DNA of 20,384 nucleotides from a virus: IMG/VR virus record IMGVR_UViG_3300025438_000177, positions 1-20,384 of that record, one strand, 5' to 3'. The translations under genes and the position numbers were made by a program. The notes beneath the pieces are model-generated. The model worked only from the letters and a program-made list of their open reading frames with translations, did no database searches and was not told the origin of the DNA. Positions 967 through 9,982 of this stretch are shown here, piece after piece (positions within the stretch are counted from its first letter, which is position 1; the number at the start of each line of letters is the position of its first letter).

Positions 967-1305
967 TTACTCCGGCTTAGTTGGCCAAATTATATCATCT
1001 ATGGAAGTTGCGTCAGCATAGGTTTCTGGAATGTCTCGCAGTGCTTGCCTATAAGCTGACCATTTAGTCTTTTTTGCTTTAGATAATGGGCTGTCTGGGA
1101 ATTGCGTCCAATCTGATAACGCCAAAAGATTGTCTCGCATATCGCGCAAAGGAGGTTGATATAAGTCCTCAGTATCTGGCGCAATTATACCCTCAACCAA
1201 AGACTCGCCGTCAGATAGGTTTAACGGCGCATCAGTTGTCAAGCACTGAAGATACCTCAAGACTTTGCCTGTCTCTGTATCTATAACGGAATAAAAATTA
1301 ATCAT
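967..1305 (-). CDS. Tail (fibre) assembly chaperone, Phage_tail_APC-like
   Basis: This is a 112-residue protein. The second half matches the phage tail assembly chaperone family (Pfam Phage_tail_APC, from memory). It has RDNLLALSDWTQFPDSP at about 57-73, followed by W82 and AYRQALRDIP at 84-93. The N-terminal half (YSVIDTETGKV...) is the usual variable part, and the C-terminus ends in a Trp-Pro tail. The ATG overlaps the stop of the large tip protein gene as ATGA, so it is probably translated by coupling. The tail fibre gene follows after 4 bases. Its position between tip protein and fibre fits a helper that folds or attaches the fibre rather than a structural component. It is distinct from the G/GT chaperones at 9495..9982. 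Confidence 0.8.
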   Translation of the reverse strand: MINFYSVIDTETGKVLRYLQCLTTDAPLNLSDGESLVEGIIAPDTEDLYQPPLRDMRDNLLALSDWTQFPDSPLSKAKKTKWSAYRQALRDIPETYADATSIDDIIWPTKPE

Positions 1306-4300
1306 TTCTTAGTCTCCAGCGTCCGAACATAGCCATCAAAAATAACAACAGTGCCGCCAGATGAACTGTATTTTCTTGCATAAACTTTAATGGTATTGGT
1401 GCCATTAACGGTCGTGATAGGAAAAGCCTCAACGCCTCCATACTGATAACTTCTTGACCTAATCAGCACATCGTTCAGATAATAGCTTAACTGCAAGTAA
1501 GGCGCGCCGCTACCTCCAGCAGCAAAGTTTCCTAATACTTCCGCAGGCGCTCCGCTTCCTGTAAAGGTCAAAGTCATAAACAAAGACGCGGTTGTACTGT
1601 TAAAAGTATATGAGCTGGCCAGTGCTGTCGATGTTGGAATTGTCACGGCCTGATCTGCAATCTTCAGAGTATCAACAGCAAGGTTAGCAATTTTAGCTTC
1701 AGTTACAGCAAGGTCTTTAATGTTGGCCGCTTCAATAACGGCATTACTAATCTGCGCCGTGTCAGTAATCACACCAGATGCAGCAATCAAGCCCGCTGTA
1801 ATAGAGTTGGCGGCTATCTTATCTGTAGTGATAGCCTCTGCGAATATCTTGGCAGAAGTAATAGAGTTAGCTGCAATAGCGTCAGCACTAACCGCCCCGG
1901 CCTGAATCTTGCCGGCGGTAATAGCATTGGCGCTAATCTTATCTGAGGTTATCGCATTGGCCGAAATCTTAGCTGCGGTAATAGCATTGGCAGCAATCAG
2001 GTTAGCGGTAATCGCATCAGCAGCAATAGCCGCAGTGGTTATAGATCCGGCACTTATAGAGTCAGCCGTCACAGCACCAGTTGCTATCTTGTTTGAGGTT
2101 ATGGAGTCGGCAGCTATCTTGATCGAAGTAATAGAGTTTGACGCTATCGAATCTGCGGTAACCGCGTTGGCCGCTATTTTAACTGCCGTTATTGAATCGG
2201 CAGCTATCTCTGTAGCGGTTACGGCGTTGGCTGCTATCTTTCCTGCGGTAATCGCGGAAGCACTTATTTCATCAGCAGTAATTGCTCCCGCTGCAATCTT
2301 AGCCGTAGTAATAGCGTCTGCGGCAATACTGTCAGCCACTACCGCACCAGCTTGAATCTTGGCGCTAGTAATGGCGTTAGCAGCAATGGTATCAGCAGTA
2401 ATGGCACCAGCGGCTATCTTATCTGATGTTATGGCGGCAGCGTCTAGCTTTGCAGTGGTGACAGAGCCAGCGGATAATTCAGTTGCAGTAATGGCATCGG
2501 CGGCAATGTCGGCAGCGACAATAGTGTTTGCGGCTATCTTTCCAGAGGTGATCGCGTTGGCTGATATCTCGTCAGCAGTCACAGCTCCAGCGGCTATCTT
2601 GCCAGTTGTAATGGCTGCTGCGGCTATCTCGTCTGCAGTAATTGCTCCCGCTGCAATCTTATCTGTAGTGATGGAATCAGCAGCTATGCTATTGGCAACA
2701 ACTGCGCCAGCGTTTATCTTTGCAGTGGTAATAGCGTTAGCCGAAATAGCATCGGCTGTAATAGCTCCGGCTGCAATGTTTCCCGCCGTAATCGTATTAG
2801 CCGCAATCTTAGCCGAGGTAATGGCGTTTGACGCTATCTTTGTTTCGGTAATAGCTCCGGCAGCGATAACCCCAGCAGTAATGGCATCAGTGGCTATCTT
2901 TGCAGTTGTAACGGCTCCAGAGGCTATCTTTAGCTCACTAACAGCGCCGTCTAATAACTTATCTGCGGTAATAGCATTAGCTGCAATCACATCACCCTGA
3001 ACGGCATCAACTGCTATCTTTGCATTTGTAACGGCATCGTCAGCTAGTTTCAGGGACGTAATTGCGCCGGCCGTAATTGCATCGCTAGTGATTGCGCCAG
3101 CGGCGATAACATCGGCAGTAATAGCATCGGCAGCAATCTTGGCCGTAGTGACTGCATCGTTAGCTAGTTTAAGCTCGCTAATAGCGCCATCTAGTATCTT
3201 GGCAGCAGTAATGGCACCAGCCGCGATAACGTCACCCTGAATGGCATTGACCGCTATTTTGGCATTCGTCACAGCGGCACTGGCTAACTGAGTGCTGGCA
3301 ATCGTTCCCTGAAGGTCAGTCGTTGCAATGGTCGCAATAAATGCAGTCCCATCATAGCGGTAGGTCTTGTTGTCAGTGGTTAAGAATACCTGGCGACCTT
3401 GAAAGTTACCCGTAGTAGGCAATGCCGTCACAATCTCAATAGGGCGCAAATCGTTAGGGAAGTTGGCAGAAGCTAAAGCCCCGCCGATATCAGCAGCAGG
3501 AATCTCCGAAGTCCACGCGCTCCCAGTGTAGCGGTAAATCTTACTGTCAGTGGTCAAGAATACCAGCTTCGGGCCAGTGTATCCGCTTGGGTTTGGCAAT
3601 GCTGTAAGGATGCTAATTGGCTCTATGCCAGAAGCAAAAGAGGCCGCGTCTACTGTTCCAGACTCAATCGAGAAAATGTCATCAGTCCAAGCAGAGGTTG
3701 CCGAATCCCACCGGTAAAGCTTGTTTTCAGTTGTGTGATATTTGATCTGACCGTTAAAGTCGCCGCTTGCAGGTAGTGACGAAACAGGCTCGATGCCGTA
3801 AGCGCCAGACTCAGAAAACAAGTCATTAACCGCCTGACTGAATGAATCGGTGTCAACAAACAGAGTAGTGGCAGATGCAACAGAGGACTCAGCAGATATG
3901 TTGCCACTGTAATCAACAGACTTCAGCCAGTAATAACGGAGAACATTATAGCCAAGGCCGGTTCTTGTGAAGGAGTCACCGCCAGCAACAGAGGTTTTAG
4001 TCGATGTTGCAAAGTTGTTTACCGTGTTCTCCCAGACCTCGACATGGCTGTAATCTGGGTCAGTCGGTGGAACCCAACTAATCGTTACCTCTTTAAGGCC
4101 ACCTGAAGCAGTTACAGAGTCAGGTATTGCAGGGGCATCTGTATCGCCTTGAGCAAGCCCAGACAAAGTAACAAAGTTACTCTTCACGCCTAATTCATTT
4201 ACCGCTCTAATCCTGATGTTGTAATTGGCGCTAGGGGTCACTCCGACAATTATGTACTGGGGAGTTGTTACCGATGTTGAATTGTAGTCCGGCTCGTCAG

Positions 4301-6020
4301 TTTCCACAGCTTCATCAATGGAACCGTAATCAAGAAGAACAGATGCCGCGTCATCAATAAGGCCGTAGTTTTCTGAGGTGTCGTAGTTTGCCGCAATGCT
4401 TCCCAGATCAATAATCGCAGATCCGCGCTGATACTGAACCTCGTAGTGCGTAACGAAAATGTCTGCGCTAGCTGTCCAGTTCAATCTCAAAGATGGCAGC
4501 AGCGTTCCGTCAGACGCGACAACGGTCGTAGAGGTGACAGCAAGGCTTGTTGGTGGCTGGGTAGTTCTACCATTATAAAGGGCAACTTCACCACCTGCCA
4601 AGTAGTCCTGCTGGTCGGAAGATGTCCAGTCGTAGATAGCCGCCGCTGTCTCTATTGCCTGGACGTTAACAACTATCTCGCCGCTGCCGGACAAAGACAG
4701 ATCGTAACCAGTGACCTGAAACACCTTGGCAGACCAGCCCATCTTAGCATTAGTCACCATGATGTTATCACCGGCCCTAAACTTTAGAGCTGATAGATTA
4801 CATGGCACGCTTATTGCCGTTTGCTGTCTTGATCTCAATAAAGCAAGCTTGGCTATGCGCTGCGCTCTGACGTTGTTAGTCGTGAAAGGCAGGGCCAAAT
4901 CAAGGTAGATAGGGTCGCCATCTTCAGTGCTGAATGTAGAGCTTAATTGGGCAGGGTAATCAGCAACAACGTAGTCTTCATCTTCACTTCTAAATACGCC
5001 TTTTACGCCATTATATAAAGACCGGCGTGATTGCTTTGTCTGCACTTCAATGCCACCAACCATAACTGACTCGTCAATTGTGACGGTAGGGGTAACGTAA
5101 GCTGCACCAGAGATAAAATACTCACCGCCGGAATAGCTCAGTGAGCCAGCCATTGCCGTTAGCATTCCCTCGATGTTGTCTTTCTTGGAATTGGCGGTAT
5201 CAATAAGGCCATCTAACGTATAGCGAGGTTGCGTGCCACCAGCGGCTAAAGTAATGGCTTGGTCGCACAAAGTGATGGCAGTCGCTAAGGCCGTAGAATT
5301 GATGTCTAAGGCCGATTCAGCTAACCCGTACTTGGTGTCACGTAGATAGTCGTAAACGCATAAGGCGGGGTTCTGAGTCCATTCAGTAGCGCCTGATACA
5401 GGGTTATAAACTTTCTTGCCTCTAATCACGGCAGATATGTTTGGCAAGCCTTGCGCGAACTCTTCGGCATCGTACTTGAGCCGAACATACATATAGGCAA
5501 CGTCTAGGAGCTTATGGTCATCAGTCCACTGCGAAGATGCTGCAACTAAAGCAGAGTCTGCTGTGGTCTGGCTTCCGTCATGCAGGCCAAGAGAAACATA
5601 AGTACCCCAGTTGCCAACAAAGCTGCCGTTGTCCCATATCTTATCGCTGTTAAAGTAGATTTCTTCAAAGGCATCAATTTCATGGCCCGCCATAGCGATA
5701 ACCATGTGAATGTATTCGTTATCGGTTCCGGTCGAGTCTATGTAAACAATTGCGCCACCCAAACGGATACGGCCATAGACCATCTTGCGCGACGCGTCAG
5801 GCTCTCTAACGGTAATATCTGTGCCTACCATTTGCTGCCCATAACTGGGCTTAGGCATTAACGCGGTTGATATCATAGATAGGCCGGAGCCTATAGCAAA
5901 AGCAGCAGCCATAGTTCCTGCGATACCGAAACCAAACAAGCTAAAACCGCCAACTGCTGCTACAGCGGTAATGCCTGCGCCAGCCGCTCCCACTATTCCT
6001 GCAATTACTGCTGTAGCCAT
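1302..6020 (-). CDS. J-like tail tip / central fibre protein with FN3 domains and decapeptide shaft
   Basis: At 1572 residues this is the largest gene here. Residues 1-55 are hydrophobic and Ala/Gly rich, as in many tip proteins. Residues about 60-480 look like a J-type / phage-tail_3 hub (VREPDASRKMVYGR..., GLPNISAVIRGKKVYNP). Two fibronectin-III-like domains follow, at about 485-622 (the first with an insertion) and 627-720. Three ~57-residue modules occupy 742-914. A shaft of 51 decapeptides spans 907-1416, then a few degenerate repeats. A beta-rich C-terminal domain (about 1458-1572) could form the distal knob. The ATG is preceded by AGGGA. The gene starts 1 base after the GNAT gene and overlaps the next by ATGA. 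It probably sits at the tail tip and contacts the host. No trans-acting chaperone domain is visible at its C-terminus. Confidence 0.88.
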   Translation of the reverse strand: MATAVIAGIVGAAGAGITAVAAVGGFSLFGFGIAGTMAAAFAIGSGLSMISTALMPKPSYGQQMVGTDITVREPDASRKMVYGRIRLGGAIVYIDSTGTDNEYIHMVIAMAGHEIDAFEEIYFNSDKIWDNGSFVGNWGTYVSLGLHDGSQTTADSALVAASSQWTDDHKLLDVAYMYVRLKYDAEEFAQGLPNISAVIRGKKVYNPVSGATEWTQNPALCVYDYLRDTKYGLAESALDINSTALATAITLCDQAITLAAGGTQPRYTLDGLIDTANSKKDNIEGMLTAMAGSLSYSGGEYFISGAAYVTPTVTIDESVMVGGIEVQTKQSRRSLYNGVKGVFRSEDEDYVVADYPAQLSSTFSTEDGDPIYLDLALPFTTNNVRAQRIAKLALLRSRQQTAISVPCNLSALKFRAGDNIMVTNAKMGWSAKVFQVTGYDLSLSGSGEIVVNVQAIETAAAIYDWTSSDQQDYLAGGEVALYNGRTTQPPTSLAVTSTTVVASDGTLLPSLRLNWTASADIFVTHYEVQYQRGSAIIDLGSIAANYDTSENYGLIDDAASVLLDYGSIDEAVETDEPDYNSTSVTTPQYIIVGVTPSANYNIRIRAVNELGVKSNFVTLSGLAQGDTDAPAIPDSVTASGGLKEVTISWVPPTDPDYSHVEVWENTVNNFATSTKTSVAGGDSFTRTGLGYNVLRYYWLKSVDYSGNISAESSVASATTLFVDTDSFSQAVNDLFSESGAYGIEPVSSLPASGDFNGQIKYHTTENKLYRWDSATSAWTDDIFSIESGTVDAASFASGIEPISILTALPNPSGYTGPKLVFLTTDSKIYRYTGSAWTSEIPAADIGGALASANFPNDLRPIEIVTALPTTGNFQGRQVFLTTDNKTYRYDGTAFIATIATTDLQGTIASTQLASAAVTNAKIAVNAIQGDVIAAGAITAAKILDGAISELKLANDAVTTAKIAADAITADVIAAGAITSDAITAGAITSLKLADDAVTNAKIAVDAVQGDVIAANAITADKLLDGAVSELKIASGAVTTAKIATDAITAGVIAAGAITETKIASNAITSAKIAANTITAGNIAAGAITADAISANAITTAKINAGAVVANSIAADSITTDKIAAGAITADEIAAAAITTGKIAAGAVTADEISANAITSGKIAANTIVAADIAADAITATELSAGSVTTAKLDAAAITSDKIAAGAITADTIAANAITSAKIQAGAVVADSIAADAITTAKIAAGAITADEISASAITAGKIAANAVTATEIAADSITAVKIAANAVTADSIASNSITSIKIAADSITSNKIATGAVTADSISAGSITTAAIAADAITANLIAANAITAAKISANAITSDKISANAITAGKIQAGAVSADAIAANSITSAKIFAEAITTDKIAANSITAGLIAASGVITDTAQISNAVIEAANIKDLAVTEAKIANLAVDTLKIADQAVTIPTSTALASSYTFNSTTASLFMTLTFTGSGAPAEVLGNFAAGGSGAPYLQLSYYLNDVLIRSRSYQYGGVEAFPITTVNGTNTIKVYARKYSSSGGTVVIFDGYVRTLETKK
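1773..3302 (-). repeat. 51 tandem decapeptide-coding repeats (30-bp period) in the tip protein
   Basis: Residues 907-1416 split without any gap into 51 units of 10 residues with consensus [I/V]-T-x-x-[K/x]-I-x-A-x-A, for example ITTDKIAAGA, ITADEISANA and VTNAKIAVDA. Hydrophobic residues fall at positions 1 and 6. Lys at position 5 often alternates with Glu, Ser or another residue in the next unit. The array has no Cys, Trp, Tyr, His or Pro and only one Phe (unit 49). After unit 51 the register breaks into 11-residue units and then decays. I infer an extended, probably trimeric beta-structured shaft. The DNA repeats are diverged at synonymous positions. Confidence 0.93.
3279..3797 (-). repeat. 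Three tandem ~57-residue modules ahead of the shaft
   Basis: Residues 742-797, 798-856 and 857-914 of the tip protein share the pattern (G)IEP[VI]..LP...G...G....[YF]...TT[ED][NS]K.YR[WY]...A. The third module runs directly into the first decapeptide, so the two repeat types are joined without a linker. The pattern LP..G..G....T..K.YR is typical of small beta domains in phage fibre stalks. Attachment of the shaft to the hub is inferred. Confidence 0.75.
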
Positions 6021-6021
6021 T

Positions 6022-6477
6022 TTAGTTCCCTAGAAAGCATTTGTGGTAGACACGTTCAATAAGATTAAACCCCATTCTAACCATTAGGCCATCAAACGGG
6101 AACTCAGTTTTCATATTGAGGGTCATTAAAGATACGCCGGAATCTTTGCAGTAGTTATCTGCAAACCTTATAAGCTGCGCGCCTGCACTGCTTTTTCTGT
6201 AGTCCGGCTTAATGTATAGCACATCGGTAGACGCGAAAACATGGCCTTTGTGGTGCATACTTTTCGAGATCATTACCACGCAATAACCCACTAAACCGCT
6301 TTCATCTCTGGCCGTGAATATGTGCAGTATTCCTGCCGCGTCTAGCCTTGCGTATTCTTTCCAGTCTGGGTCTAGCTTGATTGTATCTTGGTTCGGTTCT
6401 GTCTCTGACCAGTGCTTATCTAGCAAGGGGATCATTTCACCCTTCACACTAGGCAGGCACTCAAGTTGATAAATCAC
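6022..6477 (-). CDS. GNAT-family N-acetyltransferase in the tail module
   Basis: This 151-residue protein has the GNAT fold pattern. Strands LHIFTARDE and LVGYCVVMI (about 51-70) precede the motif A strand VLYIKPDYRK with SAGAQLIRFA (86-106), where R94 to G99-A100 form the pyrophosphate-binding turn for acetyl-CoA. A later LMTLNMK strand and a GFNLIERVY end (about 136-144) complete the fold. The start is GTG at 6477. AAGGGG lies 8 bases upstream, and TAGTG couples it to the stop of the preceding tip gene. It sits between two tail-tip genes and ends 1 base before the large tip protein gene. The acceptor cannot be read from sequence. A virion protein (tip or fibre) or a host target are both possible. 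Confidence 0.82.
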   Translation of the reverse strand: MIYQLECLPSVKGEMIPLLDKHWSETEPNQDTIKLDPDWKEYARLDAAGILHIFTARDESGLVGYCVVMISKSMHHKGHVFASTDVLYIKPDYRKSSAGAQLIRFADNYCKDSGVSLMTLNMKTEFPFDGLMVRMGFNLIERVYHKCFLGN

Positions 6478-7094
6478 TATCTATACCCCTTTAGTTCCCC
6501 GCTTGAAGTTCTGTTTGAAGGTTGGGACGCTGGAGAAGGTCTGCCCCATATTATCTCTTGTTGCTGAATCCTGGCGACAAACTCAAAGCCTTTATCCGCT
6601 GGGTGTTCAATCTTTTGATCTTCAGCCGTAAACCTTCGAATAGATGACCGCTCAAAAGCAATCAGTTTGTTTTCTGCTGAGATGGTAATCGTAGATGTCT
6701 CACCTGAATCGGATATGCTCATTACATCCATAAACCCGCTAAACAAGATAACAGGGCTGGAGATAATGTCGGCACTCTCATCAAACGCGCCAAGAAACAA
6801 GGTAATCTTGCGGCCTTGGTATGGCTCATCTCTTGCGATAGCCACCAAAGACTGTTTAATCCCTGAGATAGTTATATTGATACCGTTAGCGGTTAGCTCT
6901 TCCGATTCTTTAACGGGGCTAATCCCCATCAAATCACCAGTGCCAATATAGGTATCACCTGAGTAGACCAGATTGCCTAAGCCAGACCACAAGAATATGT
7001 CAGCCGAATCAAATTCCATCTTGACCAGGTAGATAGGCCGGACTAATTCAGCAGACGCAACCGCCTGCATCTCTGTGCTTAATGTTCTGCTCAT
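6477..7094 (-). CDS. Minor tail / tip protein, DUF2163-like
   Basis: A 205-residue protein. The ATG at 7094 is chosen over an upstream ATG at 7154 because AGAGG lies 7 bases before it and it overlaps the preceding stop as TAATG. The 20 extra upstream residues are the shadow of the previous gene. The sequence begins AELVRPIYLVKMEFDS and contains LWSGLGNLVYSGDTYIGTG (about residues 36-54), a SGIKQSLVAIA segment and repeated beta strands (ITLFLGAF, VILFSGFMDV, STITISAENKL). This recalls the DUF2163 / ORFG13-like tip proteins that follow the distal tail protein. The C-terminus (PSPASQPSNRTSSGE) is low complexity. No catalytic residues are seen. The family call is from memory of its general shape. 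Confidence 0.65.
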   Translation of the reverse strand: MSRTLSTEMQAVASAELVRPIYLVKMEFDSADIFLWSGLGNLVYSGDTYIGTGDLMGISPVKESEELTANGINITISGIKQSLVAIARDEPYQGRKITLFLGAFDESADIISSPVILFSGFMDVMSISDSGETSTITISAENKLIAFERSSIRRFTAEDQKIEHPADKGFEFVARIQQQEIIWGRPSPASQPSNRTSSGELKGYR

Positions 7095-7651
7095 TATAAA
7101 GCCTCTGTAAACGCAAAGGTGAACCCGTATATGGAGGCTGTATCTACAGACCAACCAATGTCGTTAGATGATAGCCGCCAAAGGCTCTTAGGCAAAGTAA
7201 AGACTAGCGCAGTGCTAGTGCTAACCGAGGCCCTTAATGGCGGCTGAAAGCTTAATGTGTTAGCCCCAGAAGCTTTGTCGGCTGTTGCCATATAAAGGTA
7301 ACTACCTAACTGGAAATAGTCACCAGCAGCAACCGCGCTTGATCCTGCGGTAGTCGTGAACGACTCGGCCCTGATAGCTGCGCTGGTTACTGTGGCGGTA
7401 GCTGTGCTTGTATGCAGCGGGCTGCCAAAAGTAAACGTGCCTGACCGACCCTTTAGGCCAACAATAAAAGCTTGTACTGACTTGGCTTCCGCATAGTTAA
7501 GGGCAGGCAGCGTGACTTCACATTCCCACCTAGCGCCCTGATGCTCATACGCCTGCTGGTCAAAGCTAAACGGTGATTCAGATACAGCAACGCTACGCTT
7601 TAGGCGCATATTTAAACTTTGGATACCAACACTGGGAAAAGATAAAGGCAC
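7094..7651 (-). CDS. Distal-tail-like minor tail protein
   Basis: A 185-residue beta-rich protein. The start is GTG at 7651, with GGAG 8 bases upstream inside the 3' end of the tape measure gene. No ATG competes before residue 15. The N-terminal region carries RWECEVTLPALNYAEAKSVQAF followed by GLKGRSGTFTFGSPLH (about 67-82). That pattern, in which a Trp strand leads to a GLxGRxGTF turn, recurs in phage proteins placed right after the tape measure. The middle is Ala/Thr/Ser rich. It ends in TAATG overlap with the next tip gene. Its position after the tape measure suggests it caps the tail tube or joins it to the tip complex, but sequence alone does not prove a Dit fold. Confidence 0.65.
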   Translation of the reverse strand: MPLSFPSVGIQSLNMRLKRSVAVSESPFSFDQQAYEHQGARWECEVTLPALNYAEAKSVQAFIVGLKGRSGTFTFGSPLHTSTATATVTSAAIRAESFTTTAGSSAVAAGDYFQLGSYLYMATADKASGANTLSFQPPLRASVSTSTALVFTLPKSLWRLSSNDIGWSVDTASIYGFTFAFTEAL

Positions 7652-7654
7652 TGA

Positions 7655-9502
7655 TTATGCTCCTAGCATTTTGCTGTAATTACCGCCGCGCATTCTAGCC
7701 TCTGCAACAGCTCCCTTAGCCGCGTTAGCTATCTGGGGCATAAGTGTAGCAATCTCTGCACGAACTGTCTGCTGCACGCCTGTAGTGACGTTAATGGTCT
7801 GGTTAACGGTAACGCCGCCACCACCAATTCTGTTGTTAGGTACAATTGACCCTTGCGAGTTAGGCACGAACATTTCTGGCCCGCGCTCACCTACCATGTA
7901 GGGCGCCCCGTTCTGGACTGAGCCGCCAATAGCTCTAGGGGCAAAGTTGCTAGTATTAAACGGGTCAGCGCCACCTAAAGATGAGCCATACCCGGCAGAT
8001 GAATTAATGCGTGTCTGGGGGTCAAAAAAGCCAGTAATCGCGCCAAATGCAGCATCAACAATATACTTTTGAATCAGCATTTTAATCAGGCTATCTACTA
8101 CGCTTTTTGCCATAGACTTCATGGCATCAGCGAAGTTAGCCGCTCCAGTTACGCCAGCCGTTAGAGCATCAGTCATGCCGTTCAGACCTTGCTTGGTAAG
8201 GTTCTGGATGTTTTCTTGCATTGATGGCAGTGAATCACTCCACGATTTAAACCCAACCTGCAAGTCGTTTGTAGTCTTAACTAAAGGCGTTAGTACATTT
8301 GGCGCAATTTCGCCAAGCTCTTGAATAGTCCTTAGAAGGTCATCAAAGAAAAGGTTAGTATCATCCATGTCAATAATTCCGCCAAGACTGCTGGCGAATT
8401 CTGAATTACCTTCAGATGCTTTTTGAAGCTGTCCGTAAAGAGCTACATATTGCGTGCCGAGCCTCTGTATATCTGCTTTCTGAGCAACTAAACCGCCATC
8501 TGTAATAAACTCCCAAATACTTGGAATGCCGCCATCCTCCAAGTCACCTATCTGATCGCCAAGCTCTGACATTTCCTTAGCAATGCCTTTCATCTGGTTC
8601 TGAATAGACCTAGTTTCAAAACCGGTGAAGAAATCATTTGCTTTGTTGATTACAGTATCAAGACCTTCAGCAAACTTATCTAACGCGCCCAAAGTGACTT
8701 TTACACCTTCTAAAAAACTGACAGCCATAGATTGAGCCAGCTTTTCTATGCCGCCTTCAGCGTCAGTAGTTCTGATAATGAAATTAGTAAACTTAGTAAC
8801 AATCTCATCGATAGCTGGGGCAAGTGCTGCTGAAAATTGATCTTTTAAGCCTTTCACGATAGAAAGCAATTTGGTGATTGAGTCGTTAGCCTTTTCTACG
8901 CCCTGCGCCGCTTCAGTGGACATAGTTAAGCCAAGCATCTTAGCTTCGCCTAGCAATTCCTTTAGCCCGTCACTGCCTAGCGCCAAGGTGTTTACAAGTG
9001 CAGCACCTTCGGAGTCGAACAGTTTAAAGGCAAGACGCAACTGATCCGATTCGTTATCAACCTTCCCGAATGCGTCAGCCAGTGCAATCATGCGCTGATC
9101 TAGCGGCATCCTGTTTAGCTCTTGAGCATTTAGCCTAAGCTCTTTAATTGCGCCCTTAGCCTCTCCCGTTCCTTTAGCTGCTTCCGCTGTTCTTCGCGTA
9201 AACCTCTGTAAGGCCATGTCCATAGTATTCGTTGATACGCCTGTAATCTCAGCAGCGTAGCGCAAACCGCCAAGAGCTTCAGTAGTTGTGCCAATCTTAT
9301 TAGCGGTCTTAGACAGGGTATCTGTGGCGTCTAAAGATTTTTTTATTAAGTAGCCAAATCCAGTAACACCGCCAACGCCTATTAGGGCAGTCTTCATGCT
9401 AAAGATAGACGCGGTTATACCTTTTAATGCACTACCAACTGCGCCAAATGCGGGCTTAGTTTTATCAAAAGCCTTAATTACAATGCTTACATTTTCAGCC
9501 AT
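7655..9502 (-). CDS. Tape measure protein
   Basis: A 615-residue protein. The N-terminus VSIVIKAFDKTKPAFGAVGSAL leads to a hydrophobic Gly/Ala stretch (about 30-60), then helical, coiled-coil-type sequence (EALGGLRYAAEITGVS, RRTAEAAKGTGEAK). The C-terminal portion has GGSVQNGAPYMVGERGPEMFVP, with VGERGPE at about 537-543. This hallmark of tape measure C-termini is followed by the Gly-rich VTVNQTINV segment. ATG at 9502 is preferred; a GTG at 9511 in the same frame would add three residues. The start lies inside the end of the -1 frameshifted chaperone frame (stop 9497..9495), a common arrangement. By the usual ~0.15 nm per residue, the tail would be near 90 nm. No lytic or peptidase domain was seen. 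Confidence 0.92.
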   Translation of the reverse strand: MAENVSIVIKAFDKTKPAFGAVGSALKGITASIFSMKTALIGVGGVTGFGYLIKKSLDATDTLSKTANKIGTTTEALGGLRYAAEITGVSTNTMDMALQRFTRRTAEAAKGTGEAKGAIKELRLNAQELNRMPLDQRMIALADAFGKVDNESDQLRLAFKLFDSEGAALVNTLALGSDGLKELLGEAKMLGLTMSTEAAQGVEKANDSITKLLSIVKGLKDQFSAALAPAIDEIVTKFTNFIIRTTDAEGGIEKLAQSMAVSFLEGVKVTLGALDKFAEGLDTVINKANDFFTGFETRSIQNQMKGIAKEMSELGDQIGDLEDGGIPSIWEFITDGGLVAQKADIQRLGTQYVALYGQLQKASEGNSEFASSLGGIIDMDDTNLFFDDLLRTIQELGEIAPNVLTPLVKTTNDLQVGFKSWSDSLPSMQENIQNLTKQGLNGMTDALTAGVTGAANFADAMKSMAKSVVDSLIKMLIQKYIVDAAFGAITGFFDPQTRINSSAGYGSSLGGADPFNTSNFAPRAIGGSVQNGAPYMVGERGPEMFVPNSQGSIVPNNRIGGGGVTVNQTINVTTGVQQTVRAEIATLMPQIANAAKGAVAEARMRGGNYSKMLGA

Positions 9503-9982
9503 TAGATTCACTCATCAGTTGGAAGTAAGCCACCCATTCATAAAAATGATTAAGTGGCATTTGTTCAGCTTCTTCAATACTTATGTGAAGCCGATCAGCC
9601 AAGGATAATAGGTTTACCCTAAACGGATCGGCCTTTAGTTTTTTATTGCATCCTCTACCGATTCAATCTGAGCAAACATCTGGTTAGCAATCTCAGAGAT
9701 TACCGCAGTTTCTTCACCCATCAAGTCAATACGATCTTCAGCAGAACCAAAAAGCTTGTTGCCGCCTTCGTCTTCAGCCTTCATGCAGATCAGATCAACC
9801 ATCGATCCAATAGTGGTGTTGGTTAGAAAGTTCGGGTGTTTCTTCTGTAGCTGGTCTAAGTCATAGCAAGTAATGCTTCTGCTGAATAACTTAAACGGCC
9901 CAGAGTCATCACCCCATTCAGGAACCAATACTGTGCGCGCCTCTAACTTTCTTCTGTCTCTTAACTCTTTAGCTAGTCCCAT
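9495..9982 (-). CDS. Tail assembly chaperone, GT-like fusion by -1 frameshift
   Basis: After the slip on A AAA AAC, reading continues from the C at 9638 for 47 codons to TGA at 9497..9495, giving a fusion of 162 residues. The extension begins LKADPFRVNLLSLADRL and continues HISIEEAEQMPLNHFYEWVAYFQL. This resembles the T-domain of other chaperones (a helix, then a P-L-x-x-F-x-E-W motif). The frame has no stop between 9638 and 9498, no start codon with a Shine-Dalgarno of its own, and overlaps the first bases of the tape measure gene. In lambda the GT fusion binds the tape measure while the T part recruits tube protein. The same is inferred here. Confidence 0.85.
9590..9644 (-). promoter_or_regulatory. 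Programmed -1 ribosomal frameshift signal
   Basis: The slippery heptamer A AAA AAC is at 9644..9638, in phase with the upstream chaperone frame. After 5 bases, a perfect 7-bp stem GCCGATC (9632..9626) pairs with GATCGGC (9596..9590). Within its 29-base loop a second perfect hairpin, GTTTA-GGG-TAAAC (9624..9612), can form. Heptamer, 5-8 base spacer and stem-loop make the standard layout for -1 frameshifting. Efficiency is not known. Confidence 0.82.
9635..9982 (-). CDS. Tail assembly chaperone, G-like (zero-frame product)
   Basis: A 115-residue, acidic protein between tail tube and tape measure genes, the position of lambda G. It starts MGLAKELRDRRKLEAR at an ATG preceded by AAGGGGAAAACC. It ends ...VEDAIKN with TAA at 9637..9635. 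The last codons ATA AAA AAC contain the slippery heptamer A AAA AAC at 9644..9638, so most ribosomes would stop here. A minority would shift -1 into the T-like extension. Such chaperones coat the tape measure and recruit tail tube subunits, and they are absent from the finished virion. The role is inferred from position and the frameshift, since sequence similarity in this family is weak. Confidence 0.85.
   Translation of the reverse strand: MGLAKELRDRRKLEARTVLVPEWGDDSGPFKLFSRSITCYDLDQLQKKHPNFLTNTTIGSMVDLICMKAEDEGGNKLFGSAEDRIDLMGEETAVISEIANQMFAQIESVEDAIKN

Follow-up and report, generated by a model that had tools for sequence, protein, structure and literature searches.

A gpJ-like central tail fibre protein carrying a decapeptide shaft of variable length in an environmental phage

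The length of a tail fibre is usually treated as fixed for a given phage. The locus described here encodes a tail protein with 51 consecutive decapeptides, a number that differs among its relatives. The DNA was taken from IMG/VR virus record IMGVR_UViG_3300025438_000177, and the whole stretch that was analysed, 20,384 bases and hereafter the window, belongs to a phage known only from environmental DNA. A first-pass annotation of the same letters had noted the array, assigned it to a tail tip protein, regarded it as unusually long, and proposed that it forms a slender central fibre, in which the copy number of the repeat may change among relatives and set fibre length.

The array is part of an ORF of 1572 amino acids (1302..6020, on the minus strand, as are all the other genes named in this paragraph). 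By its profile and PDB matches the product is a gpJ-type central tail fibre/tail-tip protein, in agreement with the earlier assignment. The J protein matched phrog_5616 (E 3.7e-85) and phrog_31, central tail fiber J (E 7.5e-65), and among PDB entries it matched T5 pb3 (E 1.1e-9) and lambda gpJ (E 1.1e-4), the homologous domains being those of the N-terminal hub. The gene is also placed as a gpJ-type gene would be, past the tape measure (7655-9511) and distal tail protein (7094-7651) genes and ahead of fibre and chaperone genes. The chaperone-like tail assembly protein (967..1305; Pfam Phage_tail_APC, E 1.1e-18) overlaps the end of the J gene, and a further tail fibre gene, at 3-962, encodes an N-terminal domain of the Major tropism determinant type (Mtd_N). 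Within the tail operon, a GNAT-type acetyltransferase gene (6022-6477; phrog_1249, Acetyltransf_7) lies between J and a tail protein gene (6477-7154), and its product might modify a structural protein. A diversity-generating retroelement was considered for the Mtd_N fibre and rejected, as no reverse transcriptase was found in the window or in a 32-kb near-identical contig. Assigning a host from prophages was likewise abandoned, since just distant relatives (25-36%) were found, in MAGs and genomes of varied phyla.

From its N-terminus the J protein consists of a hub, a putative FN3-like collar, three modules each about 55 residues long, the shaft, the junction and the tip. The baseplate-hub part (residues 1-488; 4557..6020) is marked by phrog_31 over residues 156-534 and by T5 pb3 over residues 164-526, and the closest cultured hubs, at 31% identity, are those of Roseobacter phages. 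Residues 489-720 (3861..4556) form a putative fibronectin-III-like region, for which the Pfam fn3 match is weak and sub-threshold (E 1.1e-4, 22.7 bits against a curated cut-off of 25). Three tandem modules of about 55 residues (742-900; 3321..3797), recognized in the translation by the motif ..G.xFLTTDxKxYRYxGxAW.., matched no Pfam family at E<=1; modules resembling them sit ahead of the shaft in several relatives. The shaft is introduced by the lead-in TDLQGT (residues 901-906; 3303..3320), and DLxG[TQ] is found directly before unit 1 in nearly all relatives. Following the shaft is a junction (residues 1417-1458; 1647..1772) that contains one-residue slips at V1417 and V1428 and four degenerate decads (VITDTAQISNAV...VDTLKIADQA), the last of which ends at residue 1458. 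It is conserved in relatives, with a pLDDT of 51-58 across most of its length in the AlphaFold2 monomer. The protein ends in an exchangeable tip domain (residues 1459-1572; 1305..1646).

The shaft itself consists of 51 x 10 residues in frame (residues 907-1416), and the span that had been given for it, 1773..3302 on the minus strand, falls exactly on codons of the ORF, so that the count of 51 uninterrupted decapeptides stands. Position 1 is I in 37 units and V in 14, and position 6 is I in 45 and L in six; the claim that these two positions are always Ile, Leu or Val thus holds at 102 of 102 sites, for which the chance probability, with a total of 120 such residues among 510, is approximately 1e-88. 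Elsewhere in the unit, position 2 is T in 42 of the 51 units, position 3 is A, S or T, and positions 8 and 10 are A in 39 and 40 units, respectively. Lys had been described as frequent at position 5, where it occurs in 28 of 51 units, and Cys, Trp, Tyr, His and Pro as missing, which they are, together with Met and Arg. Residue autocorrelation stands at approximately 0.45-0.56 for lags of ten and its multiples and at about 0.1 for most others, apart from a minor peak of 0.26-0.28 at odd multiples of five that arises because each unit has two hydrophobic sites. Three long antisense ORFs face the shaft on the plus strand, within 1720-3000 of the window (1720-1905, 1909-2355 and 2359-3000); these are a by-product of the repeat codon pattern.

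At the DNA level the units share a mean identity of 55%, the best pair reaching 90%, and the dN/dS of the shaft is 0.095 against relative L003 and 0.081 against L022, indicating purifying selection. Changes fall mostly at positions 4 and 9 (and at 7 against L003), and few are seen at 1 and 6. The low dN/dS and the sparing of positions 1 and 6 argue that the array is a maintained fold. Judged from these comparisons the units are old and diverged, and because they are both divergent in DNA and under purifying selection (dN/dS <0.1), recent tandem expansion was rejected as the origin of the array. Units with and without Lys at position 5 tend to alternate in the window shaft, to a degree matched in 7 of 5000 shuffles. 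A structural period of 20 residues was considered for this pattern and discarded; the alternation is present in some other shafts and missing from many, and for that reason it is probably a trace of past duplications.

Two AlphaFold2 monomer runs were carried out, one on the shaft end and tip (mean pLDDT 75.8) and one on the first 31 units (mean pLDDT 69.1; 56-87 by block). With the exception of two or three irregular units at the start of the 31-unit model, a strand spans positions 1-6 and a turn positions 7-10 of nearly all units in both models. The array is therefore predicted to be an ordered beta-solenoid rod and not disordered or globular, the outcome that the first-pass annotation had named as fatal to its shaft, although confidence in the shaft models is moderate and a solenoid is the form that AlphaFold2 is inclined to give to any repeat. 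Right-handed beta-solenoids, TibA among them (VIA Z 14.7, rmsd 4.4 over 271 residues against the shaft monomer model), and leucine-rich-repeat solenoids are the structures that the 31-unit model most resembles, a likeness pointing to a coil of about two decads in a monomer. Its best match among predicted viral proteins was the J protein of phage DSS3_VP1. By simple arithmetic at 4.8 A per layer, on an assumed topology, the shaft would measure about 12 nm if a coil takes two decads, and about 24 nm if single decads form the layers of a triple-stranded helix.

Several other folds were considered for the shaft and rejected. The period of ten is neither heptad nor hendecad, and no helix appears in either AlphaFold2 model, which excludes an alpha-helical coiled coil. 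The quadrilateral beta-helix of the pentapeptide repeat family, A(D/N)LXX, was set aside as the shaft gave no Pfam pentapeptide match at E<=1. Octads of the T4 gp5 type, VxGxxxxx, do not fit an autocorrelation that peaks at 10 and its multiples with none at 8, nor a position 3 that is not G. The absence of gp5-type spikes from the list of structures matching the shaft model, on the other hand, is not evidence against a gp5-type fold.

The tip (residues ~1457-1572) was predicted confidently, with pLDDT mostly 76-93, as a TNF/C1q-like jelly roll. Its closest structural counterparts included Chlamydia Pgp3 (6gjt; VIA Z 13.2, rmsd 2.3 over 113 residues), the fucose-binding BC2L-C domain (Z 12.3), the PLTL lectin (Z 12.2) and BclA (Z 10.4-10.7), and many C1q/TNF chains matched at Z 10-12. 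Since the known members of this fold are trimers, the predicted tip points to a likely trimeric fibre with a possibly glycan-binding tip; the hub homologues are trimeric as well, so that three chains probably come together in the fibre.

Relatives of the window protein were then compared by shaft length. Those of the close clade share its start, DLxG[TQ], and its junction, ITxGLIAA[SA]G-VIT. The suggestion that copy number differs among relatives was confirmed, with 11, 27, 31, 51 and 67 uninterrupted units found between the same flanks in contigs that are metagenome assemblies. Copy number is nevertheless steady within lineages: five contigs differing by at most 17 residues all have 67 units, and all contigs of an 11-unit group have 11 units, though their tips differ. 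Among 59 relatives that were found by their hubs and have a complete 3' end, 20 have at least seven units and 39 have five or fewer, and as the latter are the majority, long reach is not required by the family.

Unit-level alignment against the window placed the differences in whole blocks. L003, which has 31 units and a hub 96% identical to that of the window, is without window units 8-15 and 19-30, whereas L022, L120 and L184, with 67 units, have 16 extra units after unit 16. Inside the window shaft, the most alike eight-unit blocks lie 12 units apart (19 against 31, 70% DNA identity), blocks at units 18/19 and 30/31, also at a lag of 12, are among the most alike pairs, and units 2-5 and 10-13, eight apart, are among the most alike four-unit blocks. 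These internal super-repeats of 8 and 12 units have the sizes of the blocks missing from L003, and the 12-unit one also matches the place of the missing block, which is the trace expected from unequal recombination between super-repeats. A rule of lengths set in steps of four units was suggested by the near clade, where 11, 27, 31, 51 and 67 are all 3 mod 4, as follows from indels there of 8, 12, 16 and 20 units; it was rejected as a general rule, as a wider sample with the same junction has 9, 18, 23, 24, 36 and 42 units.

Despite its near-identical hub, L003 carries a tip that differs from that of the window and is 98% identical to the tip of L192, which has 67 units and a hub only 52% identical. 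The tip class of the window is also found on the 11-unit shafts of L029, L109 and L110 (58-60% identity), and within the 11-unit group hubs that are 84-100% identical carry many tip classes. These alignments indicate that tips are swapped between near-identical hubs, that they change faster than shaft length, and that tip class and length are not tied to each other. The shaft and tip can also travel together: in L004/L005 both match the window at 97-100% DNA identity, against 67-78% for the greater part of the hub. The J gene in this comparison is strongly mosaic, with 67-82% identity over residues 1-500, 93-100% over 501-650, 78-82% over 651-800 and 97-100% over the rest. Many tips of different classes among the J relatives end in LE[TVL]KK or similar, a motif that might reflect a common fold or a site of recombination conserved where the gene ends.

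The array proved less exceptional than had been thought. Its supposed unusual length was not borne out, as 67 units are present in IMG/VR relatives and 49 and 51 in cultured phages, and the viral contigs fetched contained 125 distinct decad arrays with six or more units. Alteromonas phage PT11-V22 (L260) has 49 uninterrupted decads in a tail protein, and Arthrobacter phage Mimi (L259) has 51, 29 and 41 in one protein. Shorter arrays occur in the J proteins of DSS3_VP1 (24), Paracoccus phage Pkon1 (18 and 18) and Vibrio phage SHOU24 (8), and in Marinitoga phage MPV1 (16). The hosts of Mimi and PT11-V22 are unrelated, and the annotation of their array proteins goes no further than tail or minor tail protein. 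The decapeptide repeat matched no Pfam family (E<=1), an NCBIfam scan gave no match, and searches of open papers turned up no account of it. The window thus encodes a protein of known kind, a gpJ-like central fibre, whose variable-length shaft is common yet seems not to have been described.

We consider it probable (about 0.68) that this protein is a trimeric, modular central fibre in which an ordered decad spacer carries a TNF/C1q-like, cell-binding tip and in which length is tuned by recombination. The N-terminal half would form the tail-tip hub and the FN3-like collar, and the three small modules would lead to a rod of 51 beta-strand-turn decapeptides, with three chains probably side by side or intertwined. 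The tip on this rod would bind the cell surface, and the rod would act as a passive but ordered spacer that sets the reach of the tip. Its length would evolve as internal blocks of 8, 12, 16 or 20 units recombine unequally with the frame kept, and tip or shaft-plus-tip cassettes would be exchanged by recombination at the conserved junctions.

The strongest competing explanation is that the shaft transmits torque or force, so that tip binding twists or compresses it and opens the tail tip. When lambda gpJ binds LamB, its beta-prism, which lies between the receptor-binding domain and the collar, turns, and the collar and tail open (PMC11101478); the shaft holds the same place as this prism, between a putative FN3-like collar and a tip. 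A transmitter of this sort should be constrained in length, yet among relatives shafts of 11 to 67 units occur on similar hubs, and no helical segment like the lambda AHS was predicted in the parts modelled, the first 31 units and the shaft end with the tip. We regard this explanation as unlikely, if still deserving of some weight. The tolerance of 11-67 units suggests instead that the shaft is mainly a spacer, through which any signal would be length-independent.

Much less probable is that the array itself binds the receptor or cell surface multivalently, by a Thr/Asp/Lys ladder on one solenoid face, with length setting avidity and not reach. Regular ladders of T2, D4 and K5 do run along the strands, and the monomer model is similar to two adhesins, TibA and antigen 43; however, it is the tip that varies and recombines, as expected of a receptor-binding element, and relatives differ freely at the surface positions 4 and 9. 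A tether or low-complexity linker that is flexible and for the most part disordered, and whose exact sequence is irrelevant, would fit the Ala/Ser/Thr/Gly-rich, low-complexity composition of the shaft, but it is very hard to reconcile with the invariant hydrophobic character of positions 1 and 6, a dN/dS below 0.1, 510 residues without a frame break, and strands in both models, and we give it hardly any credence.

A broader proposal can be made tentatively, and we hold it at somewhat less than even odds: that the repeat is an unnamed and widespread phage beta-fold serving as a modular, reach-setting shaft, shaped by unequal in-frame recombination between super-repeats of 8-20 units and by independent tip swaps, and that signalling from the tip, unlike that through the short twisting prism of lambda, would have to be independent of length, given that similar hubs function in relatives with anything from 11 to 67 units. 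One protein family supplies natural forms with 11, 27, 31, 51 and 67 units, conserved flanks and exchanged tips. With these it can be tested whether the distance spanned by a central fibre is adapted to the envelope of the host, and whether the tip can set off DNA release however long the rod is. Phage tail proteins often contain the repeat, which nevertheless has no Pfam family.

Among known systems, the triple-stranded beta-helix of T4 gp5 and VgrG is a slender trimeric spike built, as is predicted for the units here, from short strand-plus-turn repeats. Its repeat is an octapeptide, VxGxxxxx, whereas the window shaft has a period of ten, with I/L/V at positions 1 and 6 and Gly fixed nowhere. 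TibA and antigen 43 are right-handed beta-solenoids, and it is TibA, with coils of about 19 residues, that aligns to the shaft monomer model; both are monomeric autotransporter passenger domains, and the likeness is one of predicted fold. The predicted overall architecture resembles that of the BclA spore filaments, in which a repeat stalk of varying length carries a trimeric TNF/C1q-like head. The BclA stalk is collagen-like Gly-X-Y whereas the decads here are beta, so that the analogy is one of architecture, with no homology of the stalks. The same uninterrupted decad pattern occurs in J or other tail proteins of PT11-V22, Mimi, DSS3_VP1 and Pkon1, but with other hubs and flanks, and in several of these the array lies midway in a longer protein. 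A counterpart in organization is lambda gpJ (PDB 8IYK, 8XCK, 8XCJ; PMC11101478), a trimer with a homologous hub, to whose collar, beta-rich fibre and C-terminal receptor-binding beta domain the putative FN3-like collar, the shaft and the putative receptor-binding tip of the window protein would correspond. Where lambda gpJ has a shaft of alpha-helices followed by a short mixed beta-prism and an Ig-like tip, the window protein has 51 decapeptides and a predicted TNF/C1q-like tip.
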